DNA from: Azospirillum sp.
Lineage (GTDB): Bacteria; Pseudomonadota; Alphaproteobacteria; Azospirillales; Azospirillaceae
NCBI GenBank assembly: GCA_027483805.1
Contig: JAIXTS010000095.1
Coordinates: forward strand, 1-36,349
Direction: 5' to 3'
Length of the DNA: 36,349 bases
A program made the position numbers and the translations under genes. This document shows positions 9,058-36,119 of this stretch, one piece after another. Numbering within the stretch: position 1 is the stretch's first letter; each line of letters begins with the position of its first letter. The notes beneath the pieces were generated by a model, which saw only the letters and a list, made by a program, of their open reading frames with translations, was not told the origin of the DNA and did no database searches.

Positions 9058-10380
9058 TTATCGACCGGCGCGTGCTGCCTGGAACTCCACCTCTGCGATG
9101 CTGCCGGAGGTCAGGGAGGAGAGCACCGACCTCATCGTGGCCTCATGGCTGCGCCGCGCGGTTTCGGCGGTCGCAGCGTGGCCGGCGCGCAGCACCAGTT
9201 TGCGGGTGCCGCGTGCCGTCTCTTCGATCCCGACAACCGACAGGTCGCGCAGCAACGGCGATGGCACCTGCTTCTGGCTCAATGCATGGCGGGCCGCAGC
9301 CCACAGCGCTTCGGCATCATCGGCATCCGGCAGCGGCGGCGCGGGTTCGGGCAGGGTTGACCGTGCCGCACCGGCAAGTAACGGCTTGCCCCCCTCCCCC
9401 GCCCCTCGGCGGACCTTGCGAACGGTGGAACTGCGCTCGCGTTCAAGGAATGTGTCCGCCGCCTCGTCCTCATCCTTGGCATGGAAATCAAGGGTCACTT
9501 CCTCGATCTTCCGGCCTTTGCGCTTCATCTTGTCTTCAGGCATTTCCACACGGAAGGGGGCCAGCTGGTTGACCTCCGCCATCGCGCGGTCAATGGTCCG
9601 GGTGCGCAGGATGCCAAAATCCTTGTAGGCGCCTTCCGGCACGTTCAGCAGCTTGCGCAGCGTTTCGATATCCAGCGTCAGGGACGGATGATCCATCTGG
9701 TAGCGCTGCATCCCGATCTCATAGAGCTTCAAGGCATAGGTGCTGGTCACCTTCACCATGGCCGGACCCGACAGGCGGGCCCAGAGCTGCGACGACCTCT
9801 GCAGTTCCAGAAAGGCGTCGGTGAACTGGAAATGGATATCGGCGCTGTCGATCTCCACCTCATCTTCCGGCCGGACATAGGAGGAGAGGATGCGCAGTTC
9901 GGCGCGGCTGCGGCGACCCCGGAACGGGCCGATCACGACGAGCGAGCTTTCGTAAATCTCCTTCAGCGCGTCGAAAATGCGCTCATTGCCCTTGTGGTTG
10001 CCCCTCACCACCTTCTTGGGCAGGCGGTAAAGTTTGTTGGCGAAATTCTGGCTGCCGGCCAGATGGATCATGAAGTTCAACATTTTCTGCGCCGGCAGCG
10101 ACAGGCGCGACCCGTTGGCCGGATAGGAATAGACAGCTTCGGCCGCCTTGATCAGGTGCTTGTATCCATCCCGCTCGAACGTGGCGGCCGCGACGCGCGC
10201 GGTTTGCCCTGCCCGATCGATCGCGGGCAAGGTTGGCGCCGACTTGCCATCGACAAGGCTGCCTTCCACGTCAATGACCACACCGGTATCGCCGACCGTC
10301 GGCACATAGGGTACGATCGCCGCCAGTGCCTGGTCGCGTGCCGGTTCGGCACTGCTGGTCTTGCGGCGGCTTGGCGGCAT
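9058..10380 (-). CDS. repA: replication initiator, Rep_3-like, with extra C-terminal domain
   Basis: About 440 residues from ATG 10380 (MPPSRRKTSS; AGGGGAA upstream). The longer ORF-track start at 10515 would read through the operator and iterons, so I reject it. The central part shows the two-winged-helix pattern of iteron-binding initiators: LSLPAQKMLNFMIHLA, then ALKLYEIGMQRYQMDHPSLT with LDIETLRKLLNVPEG, and a second wing ending AMAEVNQLAPFRVEM. A charged linker follows. Residues about 357-440 (EALWAAARHALSQKQVP ... RKLVLRAGHAATAETARR) resemble the W/L pattern of DnaA domain I; that is inference. The gene lies beside an iteron array, a DnaA-box-like site and inverted half-iterons, supporting its role as initiator of this replicon. 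Confidence 0.88.
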   Translation of the reverse strand: MPPSRRKTSSAEPARDQALAAIVPYVPTVGDTGVVIDVEGSLVDGKSAPTLPAIDRAGQTARVAAATFERDGYKHLIKAAEAVYSYPANGSRLSLPAQKMLNFMIHLAGSQNFANKLYRLPKKVVRGNHKGNERIFDALKEIYESSLVVIGPFRGRRSRAELRILSSYVRPEDEVEIDSADIHFQFTDAFLELQRSSQLWARLSGPAMVKVTSTYALKLYEIGMQRYQMDHPSLTLDIETLRKLLNVPEGAYKDFGILRTRTIDRAMAEVNQLAPFRVEMPEDKMKRKGRKIEEVTLDFHAKDEDEAADTFLERERSSTVRKVRRGAGEGGKPLLAGAARSTLPEPAPPLPDADDAEALWAAARHALSQKQVPSPLLRDLSVVGIEETARGTRKLVLRAGHAATAETARRSHEATMRSVLSSLTSGSIAEVEFQAARAGR

Positions 10381-10416
10381 GCTGGTTCCCCTGTTCCCTG
10401 CCGGCAAACTAGTCCC

Positions 10417-10443
10417 TTCCTTACAGCCAAGGCAAGTAAGGAA
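10417..10443. promoter_or_regulatory. inverted half-iteron operator upstream of repA
   Basis: TTCCTTAC and GTAAGGAA form an inverted repeat with an 11-bp spacer, 36 bp upstream of the repA ATG. The arms equal the conserved GTAAGGA half of the iteron. In Rep_3 plasmids such as pPS10 and F, Rep dimers repress their own gene through exactly this kind of inverted half-iteron. Confidence 0.7.
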
Positions 10444-10448
10444 AGGCG

Positions 10449-10457
10449 TTTTCCACA
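10449..10457 (+). other. DnaA-box-like site
   Basis: TTTTCCACA differs at one base from the TTATCCACA consensus DnaA box. It sits between the repA operator and the first iteron, as expected for an origin. Confidence 0.5.
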
Positions 10458-10469
10458 GGGAATCATCCG

Positions 10470-11057
10470 GCCTTACCGGGTGGGGGCAAGTCTTACGCCC
10501 TGGGGCGTGTGTCAAAGGCCCCCATCATGTGCGGATACCACCCCCCGCCCTGTAAGGAATATCCTGAAAAAGCCCAGCAAATCCGCGGCTCTCCATGCCC
10601 TTGAATCTTTACTAAGAATCTTGGAACAAAATCAGGACAGGATTTTGGGTGAGGAAGAGAGGGATAGGTGTAGGGACTGTGTCCTCTCCCCATCGCGACT
10701 CGCGGCACCTATTCCTTACTGTTGGGGGGATCGACGACTCCAGCCTATCCGTCCAGGCCTTTTCCTTACGTCCCGGGGGAATCCTTACCGTTTGGGGGGC
10801 TTGGCGGATGCTGTCGCCGTCAGCCCCGGACCGTAAGGAATGGTTCCCCCAGGCGGTAAGGAGACTCGAGGAAAGTATCACCCCGGCGGCAAGGCATCCT
10901 GTCAACCCGGCTATGGTTTCCTGCGCTTCAGCCGCCCCCAGGGCGTAAGGAATTGGCCTGGCAGGGCGAACGGAATGTGCCCTGTGCACTGTGCCCCCAC
11001 GCGGTAAGGAATGCGCGATTCCCTTACCTTTTGGGGGCGCCCCCCGCGCGGTAAGGA
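10470..11057. repeat. iteron array, 12 copies in mixed orientation
   Basis: Seventeen-base copies of CCCCC-N4-S-GTAAGGA start at 10542, 10823, 10846, 10935, 10994 and 11041 on plus, and at 10470, 10490, 10713, 10763, 10782 and 11021 on minus. The G/C-run half and the GTAAGGA half are fixed and the middle varies. The 10490, 10470 and 11021 copies are imperfect. Copies are not evenly phased and face both ways, unlike the regular direct arrays of F or R6K. They probably bind the Rep protein encoded alongside. Confidence 0.85.
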
Positions 11058-21221: not shown

Positions 21222-21287
21222 TTTAACGGTGCGGGCCGGTCATGGGGATCGGTCCTGACGCTTTTGTCAGAACAAGGGACCCGCCCG

Positions 21288-22694
21288 ATGACCAGCCTCT
21301 TCGGCGTTCTCAATCACTCCAGTAACGGCCTGCGCCTGATCCAGGGGCAGTTGGGACTGGTTGCTGAGAACGTGGCCCGCGCGGAGGATCCCAACCGTTC
21401 CCGGCATACGCTGGAACAGACGGTCGACAATCAGGGCAATGCCACCATCGCGCAGTACAAGCGCCAGGTGGATGTGGCTCTGCGCGTGCAGCTGGAACAG
21501 ACCATATCAGAGGAAGCCGGCGCCTCGACGCTTTCCTTGTACATGCAGCGGGCGACGGATCTGCTGGGCACGACCGGCGGCACGCCGCCATTGAGCGACG
21601 CGGTGGACAAGTTCCAGACGGCCTGGAAGGAACTGGCCGCGACGCCGGAAAGCACTGTGGCCAAGGGCCAGGTGATCGTCCATGGCGAGGACTTGGCCCG
21701 TGAAATACGGCGCCTGAATGACGGCGTCGGTGCCATCGAAGAGCAACTGGACAGCGATATCAGCAACTCTGTCCAGGAGTTGAACCAGGCCCTGTCAGAT
21801 ATTGACGGGTTGAACGCCGACATCATGTCGACGCGGGCCGGGGGCGATCCGACCATGAGTTTGGAAGATCGCCGGGACGAACTGGTCCGCAAGGTCGCGA
21901 GCATGATGAGTGTCCGCACCATTGAGCGGGCCGATGGCAAACTGTCGATCTTCACCACATCGGGCATGTCGCTGCTGGACTCGGCACCGGTCACGTTCAG
22001 CTATGAAAAGGGCCAGCTGCGCTCCTCGGCCTCCGACCGCGACCTGACCAACATGGTGCGCGACGGCAAGCTGGGCGCACTGCTGGAGTTGCGGGCAGAC
22101 GGATCCACCCAGGACCCGCCGCAGACCGCCTCCGCTCTGCCGGGCGCTGAAATCCTGCGCAAGCTGCGGTCGCAGGCCCAGGCGGTATCGGAAGCCTTTC
22201 TGGGCGCCACCAAGCCGGGTGAGCCGACCAGCTTTGCCGACGCCTATAACAATGCCAATCCCGTCGCAGAAGGCGAGCTGCCCAATCGCTTTTTCATCGG
22301 TACCGGCGCCGCCAATATCGAACTCAATCCCGGTCTCCTGTCGGGTGATCTTGCGGTGAAGACCAGTGCTGCCCAAGGCGTTTCCGCCGCCATGGAGGCC
22401 ACGGGCCGGTCGTTGAATGCCGATGGCTTGCGCGCGTCCGGTGTCTCCTACTCCTCCATGGTCAGCACGATCATTGGTCAGTGGAGCACAAATTCGAAGG
22501 TGGCCAGCGAGCAGGCCACTATCGCCACCGACTTCAAGAGCGAACTGGACACACGATACAAGAACAATGTTGGCGTCAACATGGATGAAGAAATCGCCAT
22601 GTTGCAGGTGCTTCAGCGCAACTATTCCGCCGCCGCCCGCGTGATGCAGACGGTCAACAACATGTTGGATGCCATTGAGGGGATCGTCAGATGA
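21288..22694 (+). CDS. flgK: flagellar hook-associated protein 1
   Basis: About 468 residues from ATG 21288 (AAGGGA upstream); the ORF-track start is 24 bases earlier. FlgK is the hook-filament junction protein. N-terminal D0/D1: SLFGVLNHSSNGLRLIQGQL and GLVAENVARAED. An α-helical middle (LNDGVGAIEEQLDSDISNSV) and the C-terminal D0 motif NVGVNMDEEIAMLQVLQRNY, with AARVMQTVNNMLDAI, complete the protein. Length and order are normal for alphaproteobacteria. Read from a σ54-type promoter, it overlaps flgL by 4 bp (ATGA), so the two are translationally coupled. Confidence 0.95.
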   Translation: MTSLFGVLNHSSNGLRLIQGQLGLVAENVARAEDPNRSRHTLEQTVDNQGNATIAQYKRQVDVALRVQLEQTISEEAGASTLSLYMQRATDLLGTTGGTPPLSDAVDKFQTAWKELAATPESTVAKGQVIVHGEDLAREIRRLNDGVGAIEEQLDSDISNSVQELNQALSDIDGLNADIMSTRAGGDPTMSLEDRRDELVRKVASMMSVRTIERADGKLSIFTTSGMSLLDSAPVTFSYEKGQLRSSASDRDLTNMVRDGKLGALLELRADGSTQDPPQTASALPGAEILRKLRSQAQAVSEAFLGATKPGEPTSFADAYNNANPVAEGELPNRFFIGTGAANIELNPGLLSGDLAVKTSAAQGVSAAMEATGRSLNADGLRASGVSYSSMVSTIIGQWSTNSKVASEQATIATDFKSELDTRYKNNVGVNMDEEIAMLQVLQRNYSAAARVMQTVNNMLDAIEGIVR

Positions 22695-24757
22695 CCCGCA
22701 TCAGCGCCTATGGCAGCTACATCAACACCATCCGCACCCTTACCGGCGGGCAAAGCGCCATCGACGACTTGTCGGCGCAGCTCAATACCGGAAAGAAATC
22801 GACGGACGTCTCCTTCTACGGCACGCAGTCGCAGCGGCTGCTGGACCTCAAGTCGGAACTGGTGCGGCGGCAAAGCTACTCGCAGACCATCGACCAGACG
22901 ATGACGCGGGTGAAGTCCTACGACAAGCTGATGGAACGGATGGCCGATATGGCCACTGAACTGTCCAGTACGACGCGCCTGCCGCAAGGTCCCGGCGCGC
23001 CGCGGGTCAGCAGTGTCGTCAACCAGTCCAGCGGCGCCATGAAGGTGGCCGTCGATCTGACCAACAGCAGCTTCAAGGCCGAAGCCACCTACACCGTCAC
23101 CTCCACACCCAGCCGCAGCGGCCCGCCGGGCAGCTTCGACGTGACCGTCACCGACGGGCTGGGCGGGCGTGCCACCAACACCATCAACCTGAAACAGGTG
23201 CCGCCGCAGGTGGATGCCGACCGCTTCACAATCAGCGGCGGCCCCGGTGACGGTGCCGTGATCAAGCTGAATGTCGAAAGCCTGGAAGGCACCGGCATGT
23301 CCAGCTTCGATGTCACCTGGCCGGAACTCGCCTCCACCCGGGAGGTGATCCGCGGCATGACGGTGGAACTGGAATCCCTGCTGAATGAGCGGGTCGGCGA
23401 CCGCTACCTTTTCGCCGGCTCCCGCTATAACACCAAGCCGGTGGACGATATCGTCGCCGCCAAGCAGATCACCCGGACCACGATCATCGGGGAACGCGGC
23501 AATGCCGGCGAAACCTATGAGATGGTGCTGAACGGCAAGCGCTTCACCTATACGACCACGGGCGATGAACAGTCGCTGGATGAGGTGCTTACCAACAGCA
23601 ACCGCACCGGCCTGGTTGATCAGATCAGGGCGTTCAGCGATCCGCCGTTCAACGTCACGCTGTCCGTTTCCAATGGGATCGTCACGGCCATCGGCAATGA
23701 TGTGAAGGAAAAATTCACCCTCACCAGCAAGGTCTATGAAAGCGGCACGCACGCCAACACGGTCCTCGCGGCCGAGAACGCCATCGATGCCGGCAACGCG
23801 CCCTACACGGTGCAGGAAGCGACGGAAACCCAGCCTCAGATCGACAATGTGAAGCTGCATGGCGCTGAAGCCGACATTGGTGACGTGTTCAACATGTCCG
23901 TCGGCGCCCGCACCATCGTGCAGAACGACAATGCGCCGCCGCAGGTCATCATTACCCCGCCGACCGAATACAGCTATGTGGTCGGCCCGAAGGATTTTGA
24001 TGAGCTGAAGGAGTATAACGCCACGCAGCCGGCCAATGCCCAGCTGTCCATGTCGGGTTGGGTGGCGCAGAAACTGTCTGCGCAGATCAATGCCGACAGC
24101 ACGTCCGCGGTGACCGCCAGCGTGGATCCTAACGATCAAACCAATATTGTCCTGACCGCCAAGAGCAATAATGGCCAGTTCCAGACCAAAGCGGACATCA
24201 ACAATTCCGGGAATCAGACAAAGCTGATCACCAAGGAAATCCCGCCGCTGGCCGAACAGGACACGTTCGAAGGTATCGTCGACCCGCCAGGCCTGCCCTT
24301 CTATGACACCCAGTATCAGACGAACCGGGATGTTTCGGCGGCCTATGACACCGCGAAGCTGCAGGTCGACGACAATCTGACGGTCAAATACGGGGTCAGC
24401 AGCAATGACCCTGCCATCCAGAAGCTTGTCAGCGGCCTGCGTCGCCTGACCGCCGCGATTTCGCGTCCGGGCGATTATTCGAAGCTGATGGAGGAAGGGC
24501 GCAACCTGCTGACCGATGCACAAAATCAGCTGCGTGGTGTCCATGCCCGCGTCGTGAACGCCGCAGCCACCATGGACAATGCCCAGGGCCGCCACCAGGA
24601 GGGCGTCGCCAAGGCCCAGAACGAACTCGCCGGTATTGAGGGTGTCGACCAGAACGAGGTCGCCGTCCGCTTGCAGGCGGCGATGTCCACCCAGCAGGCC
24701 AGCTACACCATCGCCGGCAAGATGCAGTCCCTGTCCCTGATCAACTTCCTTGCCTGA
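22691..24757 (+). CDS. flgL: flagellar hook-associated protein 3, greatly enlarged
   Basis: 688 residues, against roughly 300-400 for most FlgL. The N-terminus (MTRISAYGSYINTIRTLTGG, DLSAQLNTGKKSTDVSFYG) and the C-terminal D0 (QNEVAVRLQAAMSTQQASYT) are flagellin-like. Between lies a long β-rich insert with two stretches, from about residues 274 and 394, that look like the repeat module of FlgE downstream: GETYEMVLNGKRFTYTTTGD, then IRAFSDPPFNVTLSVSN, and ADIGDVFNMSV followed by QKLSAQINADSTSAVTASVD. Starts inside flgK by the 4-bp ATGA overlap. Function as junction protein is inferred from the termini and location. Confidence 0.88.
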   Translation: MTRISAYGSYINTIRTLTGGQSAIDDLSAQLNTGKKSTDVSFYGTQSQRLLDLKSELVRRQSYSQTIDQTMTRVKSYDKLMERMADMATELSSTTRLPQGPGAPRVSSVVNQSSGAMKVAVDLTNSSFKAEATYTVTSTPSRSGPPGSFDVTVTDGLGGRATNTINLKQVPPQVDADRFTISGGPGDGAVIKLNVESLEGTGMSSFDVTWPELASTREVIRGMTVELESLLNERVGDRYLFAGSRYNTKPVDDIVAAKQITRTTIIGERGNAGETYEMVLNGKRFTYTTTGDEQSLDEVLTNSNRTGLVDQIRAFSDPPFNVTLSVSNGIVTAIGNDVKEKFTLTSKVYESGTHANTVLAAENAIDAGNAPYTVQEATETQPQIDNVKLHGAEADIGDVFNMSVGARTIVQNDNAPPQVIITPPTEYSYVVGPKDFDELKEYNATQPANAQLSMSGWVAQKLSAQINADSTSAVTASVDPNDQTNIVLTAKSNNGQFQTKADINNSGNQTKLITKEIPPLAEQDTFEGIVDPPGLPFYDTQYQTNRDVSAAYDTAKLQVDDNLTVKYGVSSNDPAIQKLVSGLRRLTAAISRPGDYSKLMEEGRNLLTDAQNQLRGVHARVVNAAATMDNAQGRHQEGVAKAQNELAGIEGVDQNEVAVRLQAAMSTQQASYTIAGKMQSLSLINFLA

Positions 24758-24789
24758 ACCAACAACATTCCCACCGAAGGAGAACCGAA

Positions 24790-25074
24790 ATGAACGCCTT
24801 TTCCCCTCATGGTTTTGCCGCCGCTCCGGCCCCGACCAGCGCTTCCAGCAGCGACGAGGCCATCCGAACCCGTCTGTTCGACCAGTTCAATGCCTTTTGG
24901 GTGAATGCCGCCCGCGAAGGGGTGCCCTATGACATGATCGGCACCATGTCGGTGACAGCCGCCATCTATGGGCTGCTGGCCAAGCATGGCGTTGGCACGA
25001 CGGCGGAGTTCCTGGAGGGCATGGCCAACGATGTGCGTACCGGCGTGTTCGCTGTACCGCCGCGGCCCAACTGA
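24790..25074 (+). CDS. small protein of the flagellar block
   Basis: 94 residues, GAAGGAGAACCG ribosome binding site, 32 bp after flgL, so probably the third gene of the flgK-flgL operon. A disordered Ala/Ser/Pro-rich start (SPHGFAAAPAPTSASSSDEA) is followed by a helical core (RLFDQFNAFWVNAAREGVPY, MSVTAAIYGLLAKHG). There is no signal peptide and no motif I recognise. A strong terminator follows. Perhaps a chaperone or regulator of the hook-associated proteins; this is only inferred from location. Confidence 0.75.
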   Translation: MNAFSPHGFAAAPAPTSASSSDEAIRTRLFDQFNAFWVNAAREGVPYDMIGTMSVTAAIYGLLAKHGVGTTAEFLEGMANDVRTGVFAVPPRPN

Positions 25075-25105
25075 CCTTTTGTCCTGTATCGCCCGCGTTC
25101 GCGCA

Positions 25106-25144
25106 AAAGGGGCCGGACCACCCGCCTGGTGGTTCGGCCCCTTT
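25106..25144 (+). terminator. Rho-independent terminator after flgK-flgL operon
   Basis: AAAGGGGCCGGACCACC and GGTGGTTCGGCCCCTTT form a 17-bp stem with one G-U wobble and a 5-nt loop. The T-run is short, but the stem is long and G/C-rich. Its symmetry may let it work both ways. Confidence 0.8.
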
Positions 25145-25290
25145 CCTGTTCATCCCGGCAAAAGACACCGGGAGCCCCCGGCAAATTCCGCCCAGTGTCC
25201 GGAATGCCGGGAAGGCGGGGCAGGGAATGCCGGGTTTGCCAAGGTCTGTATTTTGAATGAAATCATATGGTTATGGCGGACCGGATCAGT

Positions 25291-25306
25291 TGGCATCGAA
25301 CTTGCT
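25291..25306 (+). promoter_or_regulatory. σ54-type promoter of flgE
   Basis: TGGCATCGAACTTGCT keeps GG-N10-GC of a -24/-12 element. It lies about 43 bp upstream of the flgE ATG and matches the promoter seen before flgK. Confidence 0.78.
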
Positions 25307-25348
25307 CAATAGGCTGCGACACGCCATCATCCCAACGGGAGCCCTTCC

Positions 25349-28300
25349 ATGAGCATCTTCGGATCCTTGACCACCGGCATCTCCGGCCTTCAGGCCCAGG
25401 CCGCCGCACTGGGTCATATTTCGGACAATATCGCCAACGCCCGCACCACCGGTTACAAGCGCGTCGACACCGCCTTTACCAATCTGGTGCTGCAGTCCAA
25501 CTCCCGGGTCCATAATCCCGGTGGCGTGGTGGCCCGTCCCAGCTATGCCAACAGCGTGGCCGGCAACATCGAAACGGTGGACCGTACGACCAACCTCGCC
25601 ATCCGCGGCCAGGGCTTCTTCAATGTCAGCCGTCTGACGGAAGTAAATGGCGTTTCGATCCCGACCGGAGAGCGCTATTATACACGTGACGGTTCGTTCG
25701 AACTGAATGATGAGCGCATCCTGGTCAACCGGTCTGGCTTCGCCCTGAACGGCTATATCTACAGCGAAGCCACGAATTCCTTCTCGACCTCGGCGACGCC
25801 GATCCAGGTCACGGCCGATATTGACAGCCCCGTCTCCACCAAGACGATCGAGCTGCGCGCCAACCTGCCGACCAACCCGACGCCGGGTCAGCCGATCCAG
25901 CCGACCACCATTCCGATCTATGACGCCGCCGGTACCCGCCGTGACATCACGCTGGGCTGGCGCCCGGGTCAGACGGATGGCGCCTGGCGCCTGTCCGTCG
26001 ACACGCCGGGCGCGCTGGGCAGCCTGCCCCTGTCGGGCAATCTGGATGGTTTCCCGGTGTCGGCCCAGTCCACCTCCCTGACCCAGGGTGTGACGCCACG
26101 CAAGCAGATTGAAGAAGTGCAGTTCACCTCGCCCAATGGCGATGGCGCCTTCAAGATCGGCGATACCTACCGTGTCACGGTGAATGGTGTCGAATTCACC
26201 GAAAGCGTCAGCCCGACCAACGCGTCGCAGCTGTCCAACCTGAGCGGTGTCGCACAGTCGCTGGCCGACAAGATCAATGGCGCCGTGCCGCCGGTCGGCG
26301 TGACGGCCACCGTGTCCAACGGCCGCCTGCGCATTGCCTCGACCACGGCCGGCAACGATTTCACCCTGACCACGGGTGTCAACAATGCCACCCCGACCAT
26401 CAACACTGCCAACACGCCGGTCACCACGGCCGCGACGTCCAGTCAGCAGCAGCAGTCGGTCATCACCTTTGCCGGCAGTTCGGTCGATATCGGCGACAGC
26501 TTCACGCTGAATGTTGATAACAACTCAACCCAGACCTATACGGTCAAAGTCACGGCGGCTAACATTGGCCAGCTGAAGGATCTGAACGGTGTCGTGACGG
26601 CGCTGGCGGCGCAGGTTAACGCCAACTCCTCCACGGAAAAAGTCATCGCATCGGTAACGGGCAATACCCTGACCCTGCGTGGCACCACCGTGGGCGACAG
26701 CTTCAGTGTGGGCGAACAGTCCGGCACGACGACGACGGTCGCATCGAGCTCCGCGGCGCAGGTGACGGAACTGGCCTATCCCAACCGTGACATCGGCAGC
26801 GACGAAAACGCTATGTCGGTGACGATCAATGGGACCATCATCACCCACACGCCAACGGCCGGTAATGACATGGCCACCGAGTTGGCCGATTTTGTCGCCG
26901 AAATCAACGGGCAGGCATTGGGTGTCACGGCCAGTGTGTCCGGTACCAAGTTGGTCCTGACGGCGGATGCCAACAACACCGCCTTCACCATCAGCGGTCG
27001 TGACCGCTTCATGCAGGCAAATGTCACGAACGCTCCGCCGGCGGACAACACGACCTTCGTCAGCGCGGTCCAGGGCAATATCTCGGGTTCGCGTCAGACG
27101 CAGCGCATCTCCATCACCGGTGTGCCCGGCGATGTCGGCGCCACCTATTCGGTAACGCTGCGCAGCCCGACCACCACGCAGGTCGATCCGATCGCCCTGG
27201 AGGGAACCACGACGACCCAGGCCTCCACCACAGCATCCCAGGTCACCGAGGTGTCCTATCCCAGCACGGCGCCGAAGGTGGGTGATGTTTACAGCGTCAC
27301 GATCAATGGCACGGCCTACAGCTATGGCCCGCTGACCCAGGCCGATCTGGATGGTCTGCCGACCCAGCCGCCGACGCAGTCGGACGCCCTGACCAACCTG
27401 TTCCTGCCGGAGATTACCAGTGCCGACGTGACGGCGACGGTCAGCGGCACCAAGCTGGTGCTGACAGGTGCCGCCGCCGGGACAGCCTTCCGGGTGACCG
27501 GAACGGATGATCGCGCCACCGACCCCTCATCCTCGTTCTTTGACTTCTCGTCCAGCACGGCCGCCCCCGTGGTCGGCAACCGCTATGCCGTGACCATGAA
27601 CGGCACCACTTATTCCGTTCAGATCACCGAGCAGAATATCGGTGATTTTCCGACCGCAGCCAGTGTGCTGGACAACATCATCACCAAAATCGGCAATGAT
27701 TTCGGGGCGCCGTTCACGGCCTCCGCTGTCAAGAATAATGGTGTCACCACGGGTGTGCTGCTGACGGCCAAGGATGCCAGCATCACGCTGAACGGCACCC
27801 AGGAAGTGGCGCCCAACTTCAACCGCACGATCACCTACACCACGACCGGCAACGAAGTGTCGCTGGACGAGATCGCGGCCAACCTGGCGCTGAAGGTGAA
27901 CCAGGAAAGCGGCATCCCGGTGCAGGCCACGTCGGTTGGTGGCGTCATCACCATGACCAGCAACCAGGATGGCATTGCGTTCCTGGGTGAACCCAGCTCC
28001 AACATCGGCACGACGCCGCCCCATATCACGCTGAATTTCGGCGGCACTCTGCCGAATGGCGAAGAGGCGAAGGCCGGCACCCTGTCCAGCCTGTCCTCGG
28101 CCAATATCGGCACGGGCAATGCCACGGTCAGCGCCGTGACGGAAGGTGGGCAGCCGGCACAGGTGTCCTTCACCGTCGACTATGGCAATGGGCCGCAGCG
28201 CATCACCTTGGATCTGGGTACCTTTGGCGAGGCCACCGGTCTTACGCAGTATGAAGGCAGCTCCATCAACGTCACGTCCCTGCTTCAGGATGGCAGTGCC

Positions 28301-28660
28301 CAGGGCACGTTCCGTGATGTGGAAATCCGTGAGAATGGTGATGTCGTGGCCAACTACGACAATGGCCGCAAACGCGTGATCGCCCAGGTACCGCTGGTGC
28401 TGTTCAACAACGCAAACGCCCTGTCCCGTGAAACGGGCGGCACCTTCACCGAAACGGCGGATAGCGGACGCGCCCGCTTCACCTCCACGGGTGTGAATGG
28501 TGCGGGCGTGATCGCGGCCAGCTCGATCGAAGGATCGAACGTCGATATCGCGCAGGAATTCACCAAGCTGATCGTGGCGCAGCGGTCCTATACGGCCAAC
28601 ACCCGCGTGATCACCACCACCGACGAAATGTTGACGGAGACGATCAACCTGAAGCGGTAA
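25349..28660 (+). CDS. flgE: flagellar hook protein, enlarged by repeats
   Basis: 1103 residues, more than twice the usual 400-450. D0/D1 N-terminus: MSIFGSLTTGISGLQAQAAA, ISDNIANARTTGYKRVD, and TTNLAIRGQGFFNVSR. The C-terminus is typical (EGSNVDIAQEFTKLIVAQRS, YTANTRVITTTDEMLTE). Between about residues 250 and 850 there are at least five copies of a β-rich module of about 100 residues, GD-x-Y-x-V-T-(V/I)-NG followed by an aligned helical segment and a V-T-A-(S/T)-V-(S/x)-G-x-L-x-L-(T/x) end. Examples start near residues 254, 370, 472, 632 and 730, and a shorter one near 827. Own σ54-type promoter and GGGAG ribosome binding site. Confidence 0.93.
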   Translation: MSIFGSLTTGISGLQAQAAALGHISDNIANARTTGYKRVDTAFTNLVLQSNSRVHNPGGVVARPSYANSVAGNIETVDRTTNLAIRGQGFFNVSRLTEVNGVSIPTGERYYTRDGSFELNDERILVNRSGFALNGYIYSEATNSFSTSATPIQVTADIDSPVSTKTIELRANLPTNPTPGQPIQPTTIPIYDAAGTRRDITLGWRPGQTDGAWRLSVDTPGALGSLPLSGNLDGFPVSAQSTSLTQGVTPRKQIEEVQFTSPNGDGAFKIGDTYRVTVNGVEFTESVSPTNASQLSNLSGVAQSLADKINGAVPPVGVTATVSNGRLRIASTTAGNDFTLTTGVNNATPTINTANTPVTTAATSSQQQQSVITFAGSSVDIGDSFTLNVDNNSTQTYTVKVTAANIGQLKDLNGVVTALAAQVNANSSTEKVIASVTGNTLTLRGTTVGDSFSVGEQSGTTTTVASSSAAQVTELAYPNRDIGSDENAMSVTINGTIITHTPTAGNDMATELADFVAEINGQALGVTASVSGTKLVLTADANNTAFTISGRDRFMQANVTNAPPADNTTFVSAVQGNISGSRQTQRISITGVPGDVGATYSVTLRSPTTTQVDPIALEGTTTTQASTTASQVTEVSYPSTAPKVGDVYSVTINGTAYSYGPLTQADLDGLPTQPPTQSDALTNLFLPEITSADVTATVSGTKLVLTGAAAGTAFRVTGTDDRATDPSSSFFDFSSSTAAPVVGNRYAVTMNGTTYSVQITEQNIGDFPTAASVLDNIITKIGNDFGAPFTASAVKNNGVTTGVLLTAKDASITLNGTQEVAPNFNRTITYTTTGNEVSLDEIAANLALKVNQESGIPVQATSVGGVITMTSNQDGIAFLGEPSSNIGTTPPHITLNFGGTLPNGEEAKAGTLSSLSSANIGTGNATVSAVTEGGQPAQVSFTVDYGNGPQRITLDLGTFGEATGLTQYEGSSINVTSLLQDGSAQGTFRDVEIRENGDVVANYDNGRKRVIAQVPLVLFNNANALSRETGGTFTETADSGRARFTSTGVNGAGVIAASSIEGSNVDIAQEFTKLIVAQRSYTANTRVITTTDEMLTETINLKR

Positions 28661-30898: not shown

Positions 30899-30930
30899 AA
30901 CGGTCGCCGTGCCCTTTGAACGGTAAAACC

Positions 30931-33051
30931 ATGAGGCACACTATTCCACATCAGGGTACGCCCGACAAGGATAATGGCCTAGGATCAGAGACGGGTGGTA
31001 AACCGGTGCCGGTGCATTGGGATAGGATGGGGGCGGGGATGGGTGTGGGCCGGACAGGGTTGACGGCGGAACAGGCGGTGCAGCTGCACCAATCTGGCGA
31101 TGTGGCTGGTGCCGCGTCCGCTTACCGCAAACTGTTGAACACCGATCCGCGCAATGCCCAGCTGCTTAATCTGCTGGGGGTTGCCTGCCTGCAACTGGGC
31201 GATACCGCCGAGGCGGTCAGCCTGTTGACTGACGCTGTGCGGCGGCAGCCATCGGCCCCTGATTTCCAGGACAATCTGGGCAGTGCGTTGCGGGCAGCGG
31301 GCAATCCGGCGCCGGCGGTTGAGGCGCACCGCAAGGCGCTGCGGCTGCGCCCTGACCATGCACCCTATCTGTTCAATCTCGGCAATGCCCTGGCGGCGAT
31401 GGGTGCCCATCGGCAGGCCGCCGATGCCTATGGCAAGTCGCTTGCCATCCGGCCCGGACATATCGGCGCCATGTTCAATCTGGCCAACAGCCGTCGTGCC
31501 TTGGGCGATATGGATGAAGCGGCGGCCAGCTACCGCGACCTTCTGAACACGCAGCCGGATCATGCGCAGGGCTGGAACAATCTGGGGGCGGTTCTGGCAT
31601 CGCGCGGTGAATTGGCGGGGGCGGAGGATGCCTATCGCCGGTCGCTGGCGGCGCGGCCACGTCATGCGGAAACCTTGTCAAACCTTGGCAATGTCCTGGT
31701 GGAGCGTGGGCGCCTGGGTGAAGGTCTGGAATGTCACATGGCGGCCGTCGCGGCCGCCCCCGACAGTGCCGAGGCGCATATCTTTCTAGGTGTGGCGCTT
31801 CAGGAACTGGACAAGCTGGATGCTGCCATCAACGCCTACCGCCAAGGCTTGCGGCTTGACCCGGGCAATATCCAGGGGCTGACCAACCTTGGTGCGGCGC
31901 TGGAACTGTCCGGCCATCTGGCCGAGGCCGAGGCCGTGCTGTCCCAAGCGCTCTCCCTGGCACCGAATTCCGCCGAGGTGTGGGGCAATCTGGGGCTGTG
32001 CCGTCTGGCCCAGGGTGACCGGTGGCGGGCACGCCAGGCCCTTGACCGGGCGTTGGAGATCAACCCGGAACTGGCCCGGGCCCGGGTGTCGCGTGCTTTG
32101 CTGCGTCTTCGTGACGGCGATCTGGCCGCGGGCTGGGACGATTATGGCTGGCGCTTTGCGGCGGGTGATGCGCTGCCCGACCGCCGCTTCGCCATACCGC
32201 AGTGGCAGGGGGCGCCGCTGCCACGGGGACGCCTGCTGATCTGGCGTGAACAGGGGCTGGGGGATGAACTGATGTTCGCCAGCCTGTATCGCGAAGCCAT
32301 CGAGCGGGCCGGGGGACCTCCCGGCGCTGTGGTCATCGAATGCGATCGGCGTCTGTTGCGGCTGTTCACCCGCAGTTTCCCGGCAGCTTCCGTTCGGGCA
32401 CAGCGATTGCCATCGGAACACAGTGATGCACCGGAACAACCCGATATGGATGCCCATCTCCCGGCCGGGGCCGCCGCGACCATCCTGCGCCCGACCCTGA
32501 AGCCCTTCACCGGCGCGCCCTATCTGCTTGCCGACAAGCTGTGCCGGGCCCAGGCCCGTGCCTGGCTGGATGGACTGCCGCCGGGTCTCAAGGTTGGCCT
32601 CTGCTGGCGGTCCCGGTTGGTCACCACCCGTCGTCAGGCCAGCTATGCCACGGCGCTGGACTGGGCGCCGATCCTGGCGCATCCCGGCATTCAGGCCATC
32701 AGCCTGCAATATGGCGCGCAGCCCGGGGAGATTGTGGCCTTGGAAACTGCGGCCAGCCGCCCGTTGCACAGCATGCCGGCGCTGGACCTCACAGACGATC
32801 TCGACGGGGTCGCCGGCCTTATCGCGGAGCTGGATCTGGTTATCACGGCCCCGACCGCGGTGGGAGAGTTTGCCGGTGCGATCGGCACGCCCGTGTGGCG
32901 TATCGCGGGGTCCGCGGATTGGTCAACCTTGGGTACGACGATCCGCCCGTGGTTCGCGTCCATGCGGCTGTTTTCCAATGCTGGAGGCGTTGTTTGCGGG
33001 ATTGGCGACGCGGCCCGCCTGCTTCAGCGGAATTTGCATCCGCATGGCTGA
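30931..33051 (+). CDS. TPR protein with glycosyltransferase-like C-terminus
   Basis: About 706 residues from ATG 30931 (ATGs at 31027 and 31039 are also possible). Residues about 40-390 are a run of about ten TPRs, e.g. AASAYRKLLNTDPRNAQLLN, AVEAHRKALRLRPDHAPYLF, AADAYGKSLAIRPGHIGAMF. The C-terminal part (about 390-706) looks like the glycosyltransferase-like (GT-B/ADP-heptose type) domain often found after TPRs: LRLRDGDLAAGWDDYGWRF, RGRLLIWREQGLGDELMFAS and LDLVITAPTAVGEFAGAIGT. Proteins of this type can glycosylate flagellin or other targets; adjacency to flaF suggests that here, but it is inference. Confidence 0.88.
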   Translation: MRHTIPHQGTPDKDNGLGSETGGKPVPVHWDRMGAGMGVGRTGLTAEQAVQLHQSGDVAGAASAYRKLLNTDPRNAQLLNLLGVACLQLGDTAEAVSLLTDAVRRQPSAPDFQDNLGSALRAAGNPAPAVEAHRKALRLRPDHAPYLFNLGNALAAMGAHRQAADAYGKSLAIRPGHIGAMFNLANSRRALGDMDEAAASYRDLLNTQPDHAQGWNNLGAVLASRGELAGAEDAYRRSLAARPRHAETLSNLGNVLVERGRLGEGLECHMAAVAAAPDSAEAHIFLGVALQELDKLDAAINAYRQGLRLDPGNIQGLTNLGAALELSGHLAEAEAVLSQALSLAPNSAEVWGNLGLCRLAQGDRWRARQALDRALEINPELARARVSRALLRLRDGDLAAGWDDYGWRFAAGDALPDRRFAIPQWQGAPLPRGRLLIWREQGLGDELMFASLYREAIERAGGPPGAVVIECDRRLLRLFTRSFPAASVRAQRLPSEHSDAPEQPDMDAHLPAGAAATILRPTLKPFTGAPYLLADKLCRAQARAWLDGLPPGLKVGLCWRSRLVTTRRQASYATALDWAPILAHPGIQAISLQYGAQPGEIVALETAASRPLHSMPALDLTDDLDGVAGLIAELDLVITAPTAVGEFAGAIGTPVWRIAGSADWSTLGTTIRPWFASMRLFSNAGGVVCGIGDAARLLQRNLHPHG

Positions 33052-33191
33052 CATTTTATCCTTGCCCAGTTTTCATATGTCCGACGTGGTGCTATCGTAT
33101 GCCTGATGGCTGAAATCAAGAGTATGGGGGCTCAGGATTTCAGCGCGCGGTGTGTTTCAAGACCATCGATTGGCTTCGGCGGGCAACGAGC

Positions 33192-36119
33192 ATGTCAGTG
33201 GCGGGTGGAAGTCGGTCAACCGACGCACACGATGGCATTCATGCCTCTCCCTTGGGCTCTCGCCCGGGGCTGGTGCGTGCTGACCGCCGTATGGTGACGG
33301 CCTTTTTCTGCGATATTGTCAATTCAAGCCATATGGTGATCCCGCAGGATCCGGAAGATGCCTACGACCAGCTGTCGGGCCTGATCGATATCATGCGTCG
33401 GCATGTCGCGGCGTTCGGCGGCACGATCTGCCAGACGCTGGGTGATGGGATCTACGCGGTTTTCGGCGCACCGGTTGCGTTGGAGAACCATGCGGTCCGT
33501 GCGTGTTTTGCGGCCGATGGCATCTTGCGGGAAGTGGCGCGCGGCGGGCGGGCCGTCCGCATCGGCATGGCATCGGGCGAGGTGCTGTGGGATCATGATG
33601 TCGGCGGCCAGACCTTCAACCCCGCTACCGGCGCCACTGTCCATATCGCCGCGAAGTTGCAGCAGATTTGCCCATCCAACCGGGCCCTGATGGCGGATAC
33701 GACGGCCCGTCTGGCTGCCGATTGGGTTGAAACCGCGGAATCCTCGCTGGTCGTTCTGGCCGGGGAAGAGCCGTTGCAGACCCATCTTCTGGCGTCGGTG
33801 CGGTCACGGCGGCGGCAATATGAAGATGAATTGCCGATGGTGGGTCGGGAGAATATCCGCTCCTATCTGTTATCCACGCTGGATGGCGTGGCCAGGGGGA
33901 TCAGCGGATTTTCGGCTCATCTGGTCCAGGCGGCGCCGGGTCTCGGCAAGACGCGCCTGATACGGTCAATCGCGGATTCAGCACGGACGGCCGGGGTTCG
34001 TGTGCTGGAATGGCAAGTGCCCCCGGTGGAGCCCGTGGGCGCGGTCAGCCCGATGCATGAGCTTGTCTCTGAGATGCTGGACGGGCCGTTGCCCCGCACG
34101 CCGGAGGGGTTGTCGGCGATGCTGCGCGCGGCGGGTGCGCAGCCTGAACAGGCCGACGCTCTGTCGCGTATCCTGTTGCCCACAGTGACCGACAATCAGG
34201 ACCGCGGGACCTCCGCCATATTGTCGCTGGCGGCGGCGGCCCTGGCGATGCTGGTCCGACACGCGGCCGATCGCCGGCCGATCCTGCTGCTGGTTGAGGA
34301 TGCTCATTGGGCGGACACGGCTGTACAGGCCACCTTGGCGGCCTTGGCGGACCTGCCTGAAGCAACCCGTCTGCTGCTTGTACTGACCAGCCGCGAGGAG
34401 GGCCTGAATCCCGCCATTGCCGGCCATCGACGGTTGTCTCACCACAAACTGGGACCTCTGAGTATCGCTGACACGTCCAGCCTGCTTGACAATTGGCTGG
34501 GCCGGTATCCCGGTCTTGACAGGATCAAGCTGGACTTGTCGCGCCGTGCGCGTGGCAATCCGTTCTTTCTGGTGGAATGCATTCGTGTCCTGATGATGAA
34601 CGGCACCCTGCTGGGTGATGTCGGCGATATGCGGCCGGGAGAGGTGCCCGCGTTCCCGCTGCCGGACTCCCTGCAGGCCCTGTTGTCCGTGCGGATCGAT
34701 ATGTTGACGGAGGATGCGCGCCGCGTGCTGCGAATCGCCGCTGTCACGGGCACCACTTTCGATGCCACCCTGCTGTCCCGGCTGATCGGGGCGGAGGTCA
34801 CAGGACGGTTTCTGCCCGATCTTGTCCGTTTGGGCCTTATCGACGAAACACGTCTTCTGCCGCGGCAGGAATTCTCATTCCATCATGCCTTGCTGCATGA
34901 GGCCGTCTATTCAGGCATTACGCGTCGTGATCGGCGGCATATTCATGGGCAACTGGCAGCGCTGCTGGATCTTGACGATTTTGCGGAATTGTCTGGACGG
35001 CTTGCGGCGCAGGCGCGGCATGCCGCTGCGGGCGAGCTTTGGTCCTTGGCGGTGAGGGCCGGCGTTGCTGCCGGACGGGAGGCGCTCAACCGATCGCTGG
35101 CGGCGGAGGCGGTGTCGCTGTTGTCGATCGCCGTGGAGGCGAATGAAAAGCTGCCGATCAGCCAGGACAGCGTTGTAGCCGGTATTGACCTGCGTATCGC
35201 CTTGGCGAAGGCGGCGATGCCGGCCGGTATGGGCGAGCGGGCCATTGCCGAACTGGATCGGGCCGTGGCCCTGGCCCGCCGCGCGGGCGACGAGTCCCGG
35301 GCAATGGTCGGTCTGGTGCAGCAGATTAACTATGAATGGGTCTATGGCAGCCTGGACCAGGCGCTTGTGCTGGCAGCATCAGCCATCAGCTATTCCGGCG
35401 GCGAGCCGGCGGCGCATCCGGAAGTGCTGATTATTGCCGCGTCCTGTCATATCGAGAATGACGACCCGGCCAGTGCTGTTCGTTTGCTGGATATCGCAGC
35501 CGGTTCCGGTTTGCGGACCGTCCATGTCGCCGGCCGATATACGATGCTGAATGTCGATATGATGATCAGTATCAAAAAGGCGCGCTGCCTGGCTCTGATG
35601 GGGCGGCCGCATGACGCGGAGCCTCTGATTCAGCATGCCCTGCGGTTGGCCGATGCCGACATGTTCCCGTTCAACCGTGTATTCGTCCGCGCCGACATCG
35701 CGGAAATCCGGTTGCGGCAGCGTCGGTTCGGCGACGTCCTGGCCTATAGTTCGGAAAGCCTGTCCCTGTCCCGCTCCACCGGCGCCCCGTTGTTCGACGC
35801 GGTCAATCTGGCCCGCCGTGGTCTGGCGCTGTCTTACATGGGGCGCGGCATCGCCGGCCTTGCCGACATTGACCAGGGGCTGGGGATTGCCATTGCGCGC
35901 GGAGCGGCCTTGCATGTTGCCAAGGCCAGACAATGCCGGGCCCTGGCCCTGGCCTTGACCGGACAGTTGCAGATGGCCCAGCAGGAACGGGCCGCCGCGG
36001 CGATTCTGGCGGATGAACGGGGTTTCCGGCTGCTGGCAGGTCAACTGCCCAGTCTTGCCGAACTTACCGAGATCGCGGCCCAGGCGCGTTCGAACCTCAA
36101 TCTACTTTCCATCCGCTGA
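33192..36119 (+). CDS. class III cyclase - AAA ATPase - TPR signalling protein
   Basis: About 975 residues from ATG 33192 (the ORF-track start at 33150 is a GTG). Class III nucleotide cyclase domain: MVTAFFCDIVNSSHM (first metal-binding Asp) and GGTICQTLGDGIYAVFGAP (second Asp). A STAND-type ATPase follows, with Walker A LVQAAPGLGKTRLI (about residue 255) and Walker B RPILLLVEDAHWAD (about 370), with a winged-helix-like segment near ITRRDRRHIHGQLA. The C-terminal ~350 residues are degenerate TPR helices. The architecture is widespread in soil bacteria (cyclase with predicted ATPase); ligand and product are unknown. The first-residue extension of about 35 residues is unclear. Confidence 0.9.
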   Translation: MSVAGGSRSTDAHDGIHASPLGSRPGLVRADRRMVTAFFCDIVNSSHMVIPQDPEDAYDQLSGLIDIMRRHVAAFGGTICQTLGDGIYAVFGAPVALENHAVRACFAADGILREVARGGRAVRIGMASGEVLWDHDVGGQTFNPATGATVHIAAKLQQICPSNRALMADTTARLAADWVETAESSLVVLAGEEPLQTHLLASVRSRRRQYEDELPMVGRENIRSYLLSTLDGVARGISGFSAHLVQAAPGLGKTRLIRSIADSARTAGVRVLEWQVPPVEPVGAVSPMHELVSEMLDGPLPRTPEGLSAMLRAAGAQPEQADALSRILLPTVTDNQDRGTSAILSLAAAALAMLVRHAADRRPILLLVEDAHWADTAVQATLAALADLPEATRLLLVLTSREEGLNPAIAGHRRLSHHKLGPLSIADTSSLLDNWLGRYPGLDRIKLDLSRRARGNPFFLVECIRVLMMNGTLLGDVGDMRPGEVPAFPLPDSLQALLSVRIDMLTEDARRVLRIAAVTGTTFDATLLSRLIGAEVTGRFLPDLVRLGLIDETRLLPRQEFSFHHALLHEAVYSGITRRDRRHIHGQLAALLDLDDFAELSGRLAAQARHAAAGELWSLAVRAGVAAGREALNRSLAAEAVSLLSIAVEANEKLPISQDSVVAGIDLRIALAKAAMPAGMGERAIAELDRAVALARRAGDESRAMVGLVQQINYEWVYGSLDQALVLAASAISYSGGEPAAHPEVLIIAASCHIENDDPASAVRLLDIAAGSGLRTVHVAGRYTMLNVDMMISIKKARCLALMGRPHDAEPLIQHALRLADADMFPFNRVFVRADIAEIRLRQRRFGDVLAYSSESLSLSRSTGAPLFDAVNLARRGLALSYMGRGIAGLADIDQGLGIAIARGAALHVAKARQCRALALALTGQLQMAQQERAAAAILADERGFRLLAGQLPSLAELTEIAAQARSNLNLLSIR

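Follow-up and report, generated by a model that had tools for sequence, protein, structure and literature searches.

A repeated module of predicted βββ-α-βββ fold in hook, junction and filament proteins of a Niveispirillum flagellum, with a likeness to domain II of phage tail sheaths

It is usual to call the outer domains of flagellar proteins hypervariable and to treat them as unrelated between proteins. At the Salmonella junction, the protofilaments run without a break through FlgE, FlgK, FlgL and FliC, whose outer domains are exposed (PMC12221982). In Campylobacter jejuni the D3 and D4 domains of FlgE add contacts, and when these are deleted more than 90% of cells are left with flagellar stubs (PMC5097172). 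The D2 domain of FlgL is also exposed and resembles FlgK D2, and a quasi-homotypic D2 contact has been proposed (PMC6155364). As for phage tails, a review notes just a general architectural likeness of flagellin and sheath (PMC9230969). Our literature search, which covered few subscription papers, returned none that connects the sheath domain with surface domains of flagella; this is weak evidence of novelty.

Here we examine a window of 36,349 nucleotides (the whole stretch of DNA that was analysed) from a 5.19 Mb draft genome in 543 contigs. The nearest named FlgL, that of Niveispirillum lacus, is 91% identical to the FlgL encoded here, which places the organism in Niveispirillum (Azospirillaceae). 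Three flagellar genes form one cluster, with flgK directly upstream of flgL:

21264..22694, + strand: flgK, a 476 aa junction protein between FlgE and FlgL (Pfam FlgK_D1, NCBIfam flgK_ends)
22691..24757, + strand: flgL, an open reading frame for a 688 aa hook-filament junction protein
25349..28660, + strand: flgE, an 1103 aa hook protein with Pfam Flg_bb_rod, FlgE D1 and Flg_bbr_C on its ends and matches to NCBIfam FlgE models

These reading frames agree with the coordinates and lengths that an earlier note on this DNA had given for FlgL and FlgE. FlgE carries PF00460, PF22692 and PF06429 above the Pfam cut-off. FlgL has flagellin-like helical ends, which match NCBIfam flagellin/FlgL models with scores below cut-off, a variable middle, and a gene beside flgK; its AlphaFold2 (AF2) model has helices at residues 3-92, 211-231 and 574-687, with beta inserts between them. 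The same contig encodes a Rep3-type replication initiator (window 9058-10515, - strand; PF21205 and PF01051), which suggests that it belongs to a plasmid or chromid. In a plasmid collection, the relatives of this FlgL in Azospirillum are encoded by replicons of 0.9-2 Mb, and in annotated plasmid records the long Azospirillum FlgL appears as a hypothetical protein or has no gene listed. Immediately downstream of flgE is a gene for an SprA-related family protein (PF12118; 28702-29418, + strand), and beyond the flagellar genes (30916-36119, + strand) come a TPR-repeat protein and then an adenylate cyclase-AAA ATPase fusion of 989 aa.

The iterated module profile resolves the FlgE insert, which contains 16% Thr and 9% Ser, into six modules of about 90 aa, five contiguous and the sixth split in two. 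The same profile finds two modules in FlgL. Domain E-values across both proteins range from 9e-5 to 6e-26:

26099..26380, + strand: FlgE module 1, aa 251-344, E 6e-26, AF2 pLDDT about 90
26441..26713, + strand: FlgE module 2, aa 365-455, E 3e-24
26750..26995, + strand: FlgE module 3, aa 468-549, E 3e-15, the fastest evolving (dN/dS 0.16-0.19)
27092..27205, + strand: N-terminal half of the split FlgE module, aa 582-619, profile positions 3-30, model strands 341-345 and 353-362
27230..27499, + strand: FlgE module 4, aa 628-717, E 6e-22, nested in the split module
27545..27808, + strand: FlgE module 5, aa 733-820, E 6e-19, nested in the split module
27812..27982, + strand: C-terminal half of the split FlgE module, aa 822-878 (profile match aa 811-878), profile positions 22-84
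22979..23326, + strand: separate all-beta FlgL insert, aa 97-212, between the N-terminal D1 helices, with AF2 strands and no helix
23456..23734, + strand: FlgL module 1, aa 256-348, E 2e-22, βββ-α-βββ, sister of the last/split FlgE module
23828..24199, + strand: FlgL module 2, aa 380-503, E 6e-21, βββ-α-βββ with an enlarged beta hairpin

Modules 4 and 5 sit in a hairpin of the split FlgE module. Its two half-matches are read as one interrupted module because the counterpart in the shorter FlgE proteins of relatives is contiguous, and because the predicted strands complete one βββ-α-βββ unit; in the model, the C-terminal half consists of a strand (582-590), a helix (596-609) and further strands (615-642). 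This arrangement recurs in relatives, as Niveispirillum, Nitrospirillum and two other genera have one or two whole modules inserted in the beta hairpin of FlgE's last/split module. The earlier note had counted at least five FlgE copies, to be raised to six once the two half-matches are taken as one module. It had missed the nesting, the flagellin copies described below and the fact that FlgK lacks the module. The peptides that it had singled out as a telling match are present, FTYTTTGDEQSLDEV in FlgL and ITYTTTGNEVSLDEI in FlgE, the latter within the C-terminal half of the split module. The third FlgL insert is a different matter: aa 97-212 gave no significant profile match to the shared module (hhalign 0.3-15.6%). 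This all-beta insert is conserved in Azospirillaceae.

FlgE and FlgL share a homologous surface module. A starting profile built from an alignment of seven hand-cut modules, later iterated, was run on the whole genome and recovered all seven together with two clear sites on other contigs. Two flagellins of the same genome, encoded on other contigs, hold one module copy each, and own-genome matches at E <0.001 are confined to FlgE, FlgL and these two flagellins; the iterated profile found no module in the 476 aa FlgK. Profiles restricted to one protein class also reach across classes. One made from FlgE alone matches both FlgL modules (2.7e-11 and 1.3e-9), one from FlgL alone matches FlgE modules (4e-12 and 7e-13), and one from the flagellins alone matches FlgE at 4e-5, while the best reversed-sequence controls of the three stand at 0.39, 0.44 and 4.6, respectively. 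The cross-protein match between FlgE and FlgL therefore exceeds what composition accounts for.

The predicted folds agree. The AF2 models show a single order of elements, βββ-α-βββ, in the modules of FlgE and in the two of FlgL alike, so that the structure-prediction check proposed earlier, on which unrelated folds would have counted against the claim, came out in its favour. The model of FlgE aa 244-889 (18 sequences) has a mean pLDDT of 79 and a pTM of 0.44, the latter meaning that the relative arrangement of the modules is not predicted; that of full-length FlgL (31 sequences) has a mean pLDDT of 75.7. A single-sequence search of solved structures gave none convincingly matching the module region, and in comparisons with solved FlgE chains the best-matching stretches were the conserved ends and not the modules. 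No structure or mutant of this flagellum was found in the sources searched.

No Pfam model recognises the module, and a PHROGs search returned nothing. Profile and structure comparison nonetheless show that its nearest relative is domain II of the Mu-type phage tail sheath (Phage_sheath_domII, PF17481). In Foldseek searches of the PDB with the module model, the cyanophage A-1(L) tail sheath (8kee) aligned over 99 columns at 2.9 Å rmsd and 21% identity with probability 1.00, accompanied by the phage Mu trunk protein (21% identity) and the PhiTE and Bas63 tail proteins, and, lower in rank, by flagellin D2/D3 and FliD D2-D3; none of the PDB matches reached E 0.001. Several tail sheath proteins were also matched in a library of viral models. 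In PDB sequences a 25-module profile found gp76 of 9zdk (9e-5) together with two tail sheath entries (0.07 and 0.25), and the same profile matches a prophage tail sheath in two alphaproteobacteria (9e-7 and 9e-6) at the position of PF17481. Comparison by hhalign with sheath domain II from 14 Mu-type sheaths gave 97.5% for all modules, 97.5% for FlgE only, 97.2% for FlgL only and 92.5% for flagellins only, while no control exceeded 16%. Searching the other way round, with an HMM made from 12 annotated phage sheath domains, found the last modules of Azospirillum FlgE at 6e-11 to 4e-9, with a best reversed control of 1.1. On the window's own proteins this HMM scored 0.2 for FlgE and 0.001 for FlgL, so for this genome the sheath link runs via orthologues, and its own FlgE modules reach the sheath solely by profile-profile and fold comparison. 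The PF17481 model itself matches neither the window nor Azospirillum FlgE, and when single FlgE modules were compared with phages by tblastn all hits had E-values of about 5 to 10, so that profiles are needed to see the relationship. It seems likely that one mobile module decorates helical tubes of two unrelated classes, bacterial flagella and the contractile tail sheaths of Mu-type phages, having been copied repeatedly among axial genes and having crossed between phage and flagellum at least once.

Two other accounts of what the module is have to be weighed against this one. The FlgE and FlgL inserts are alike in composition, and low-complexity, Thr/Val-rich beta repeats might in principle have converged. 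We regard this as extremely unlikely: the Smith-Waterman score between the two inserts is 162, compared with a mean of 64 and a maximum of 100 over 300 shuffles, neither composition-keeping shuffles nor reversed sequences ever came near the observed scores, and the modules agree both in motifs and in fold. Shuffles and reversed controls together thus reject a resemblance driven by composition. The modules might instead be merely divergent members of the Flagellin hook IN motif (PF07196). The conserved IN and the strands that follow it do align, hhalign against an extended Flagellin_IN region gives 93.3% with all modules (26-91% with single classes), PF07196 scores 12.7 bits at FlgE module 2, and its match overlaps a weak module match in one FlgK. 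All modules tested nevertheless fall under the 22.7-bit cut-off, and the link to sheath domain II is the stronger one (97.5% versus 93.3%). We treat Flagellin_IN as a possible relative of the module, weaker than sheath domain II, and consider simple membership of PF07196 possible but doubtful.

The shared module occurs in 25 of 59 genomes of relatives, all of them Azospirillaceae and nearly all with a long FlgE. FlgE holds 2-6 modules in this family and FlgL 1 or 2, and in these genomes the roughly 450 aa FlgE paralogues are module-free by the iterated profile. Apart from FlgE and FlgL, the proteins that carry the module in these relatives are flagellins. As a rule a genome has two of them, each with a single copy and with open reading frames mostly of 616-690 aa; the sole exception is a reading frame of roughly 3460 aa in one genome (G026). 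A wider draw of 385 alphaproteobacterial genomes yielded matches in 22, at loci encoding FlgE, FlgK, FlgL, flagellins, two Mu-like prophage tail sheaths and a few others. One family from this draw (f38; L282:4325-10896, + strand) has adjacent flgE, flgK and flgL genes with 3, 1 and 5 modules. The earlier note had proposed sharing between neighbouring proteins; FlgE and FlgL do share the module, but the circle is wider, extending to flagellins and, in this other family, to FlgK.

Several further members of the draw may be recorded here. The f38 FlgL is not recognised by Pfam at E 0.01, and has a true module (aa 105-192 of the L282 protein) at about the place of the all-beta insert of our FlgL. 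Giant flagellins occur in other alphaproteobacteria, one of 1021 aa with five module copies (L286:1310-4372, + strand) and one of 1590 aa with about seven weak copies (L296:3876-8645, - strand). A FlgK of 1620 aa (L295:2324-7183, + strand) combines one module with a Flagellin_IN match that overlaps a weak second module. Two unannotated Ser/Thr-rich proteins of 378-395 aa (L287:4048-5181 and L288:3460-4644, both + strand) have one module each; by sequence they are neither flagellin nor sheath, and the one that was checked has no Pfam match.

We built a tree of 114 modules, in which each fork rests on about 87 columns, so that the deep branching order is uncertain. Across all genera the first FlgL modules fall into a single clade (98/92), which is sister to the clade of last/split FlgE modules (union of 29 modules, 98/96). 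Flagellin modules also form a clade (97/81), which groups (100/96) with the modules of the short FlgE proteins. Among the 114 modules, none from FlgL or a flagellin pairs solely with an FlgE module of its own species. FlgE modules 3 and 4 are duplicates, present in other members of the genus and absent from Niveispirillum irakense. When f38 is added, its FlgL modules scatter over several FlgE groups. Among constrained topologies, a Niveispirillum-specific clade of FlgE and FlgL modules was rejected (p-AU 0.0105), a single origin of both FlgL modules was weakly rejected (p-AU 0.0357), and a single clade of all FlgE modules was not (p-AU 0.066). The tree supports a history in which modules were copied between axial genes several times, long ago, with vertical descent afterwards, and it dates the copying to before the split of the Azospirillaceae genera.

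This history bears on what had been proposed for the two proteins. The telling match turns out to reflect a real sister relation, that of FlgL module 1 with the split FlgE module across Azospirillaceae. Exchange between axial genes, one of the suggestions made earlier, holds for old events, as the sister clade indicates, but not for recent ones within the genus, as the rejected Niveispirillum clade indicates. The other suggestion, co-evolution, is not supported as an ongoing process, given that FlgE varies between 2 and 6 modules while FlgL of the same genera holds at 1 or 2. Comparison of our FlgE with that of N. lacus gave dN/dS values of 0.000 for the halves of the split module, 0.02-0.19 for other modules and 0.006-0.009 for the core, with the C-terminal half of the split module the slowest-evolving module part (0-0.02). 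By this measure the modules are under purifying selection, the oldest FlgE module as constrained as the core.

Taking these results together, we think it probable that copies of the βββ-α-βββ module form an outer shell on the polar-type flagellum of Azospirillaceae, reinforcing hook, junction and filament, and that they arose by ancient copying. From the match in flagellin size, we infer that the module-bearing proteins make up the polar flagellum of Niveispirillum. The flagellum exterior would be decorated by the six modules of FlgE, the pair in FlgL and the single copies of the two flagellins, all of them the product of old copying between genes, vertical descent, and tandem and nested duplication within flgE. 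The modules would stand outward from FlgE D2 and, in FlgL, from the place of D2; by touching neighbouring subunits they may form an outer shell and make hook and junction stronger, as D3 and D4 do in Campylobacter FlgE. With one module in the filament, two in FlgL and up to six in the hook, most material would lie at the joint under most strain. Two observations speak against a shell: the FlgK encoded here lacks the module, which would leave a gap in the shell at the FlgK ring, and the number of FlgE modules is free to vary (2-6), which means that no fixed geometry is conserved.

A different function and a different history should be considered alongside this reading. As the main rival, the modules could be a lineage-specific adhesive or shielding coat (for root or surface attachment, as a glycan carrier, or as a decoy for phages or antibodies) and not a reinforcement. 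The Thr/Ser-rich composition of the FlgE insert would suit such a coat. The polar flagellin of A. brasilense is reported to be glycosylated, with 65 kDa predicted and 100 kDa apparent (PMC12826043), and the module-bearing flagellins match it in size; extra sheath domains, moreover, have been proposed to serve adhesion or stability (PMC9230969). Against this, the oldest FlgE module is conserved like the core, which favours a structural contact over a variable coat, and no glycosylation site or ligand has been identified in the modules. A coat is on balance unlikely, though not implausible. As to history, recent recombination between flgE and flgL could be shuffling modules within the genus, given that the two genes are adjacent and that the closest module pair joins a FlgE with a FlgL. 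Since the first FlgL modules of all genera form one clade, a Niveispirillum-only clade is rejected and the best flgE-flgL DNA match spans just 41 bp at 78%, we give this very little credence.

One module is traceable here by sequence through hook, junction and filament and is linked to a phage tail sheath domain. If this reading is correct, the surface domains of helical tubes constitute a shared pool, and Azospirillum and Niveispirillum hooks, with 2-6 modules per subunit in related species, offer a natural series for the effect of outer domains on hook stiffness.

Among described systems, the extra outer domains of Campylobacter FlgE are the reinforcing precedent, being likewise inserted in the hook protein and enlarging the hook surface (PMC5097172); there, however, two extra domains are involved, whereas FlgE here has up to six copies of one module. 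The giant flagellins of Oceanospirillales show an axial protein enlarged through internal duplication of a surface domain (PMC6248924), but in one protein, while hook, junction and filament share the module described here. Xanthomonas and Burkholderia FlgL has an exposed accessory domain, D2, resembling one found in an adjacent axial protein (PMC6155364); that domain is described as an 8-stranded beta-sandwich, and the similarity of fold is between FlgL and FlgK, not FlgE. The Flagellin hook IN motif is also present in several axial flagellar proteins and its helix-IN-strand half aligns, although our module, at about 90 aa, has additional N-terminal strands and remains under the curated cut-off. 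Phage_sheath_domII resembles the modules in being an outer, non-core insertion in a helical tube protein, and differs in its host protein and in that the modules here occur in tandem and nested arrays. The enlargement of axial proteins by surface domains is known; the homology of such a domain to domain II of the phage tail sheath is unexpected.
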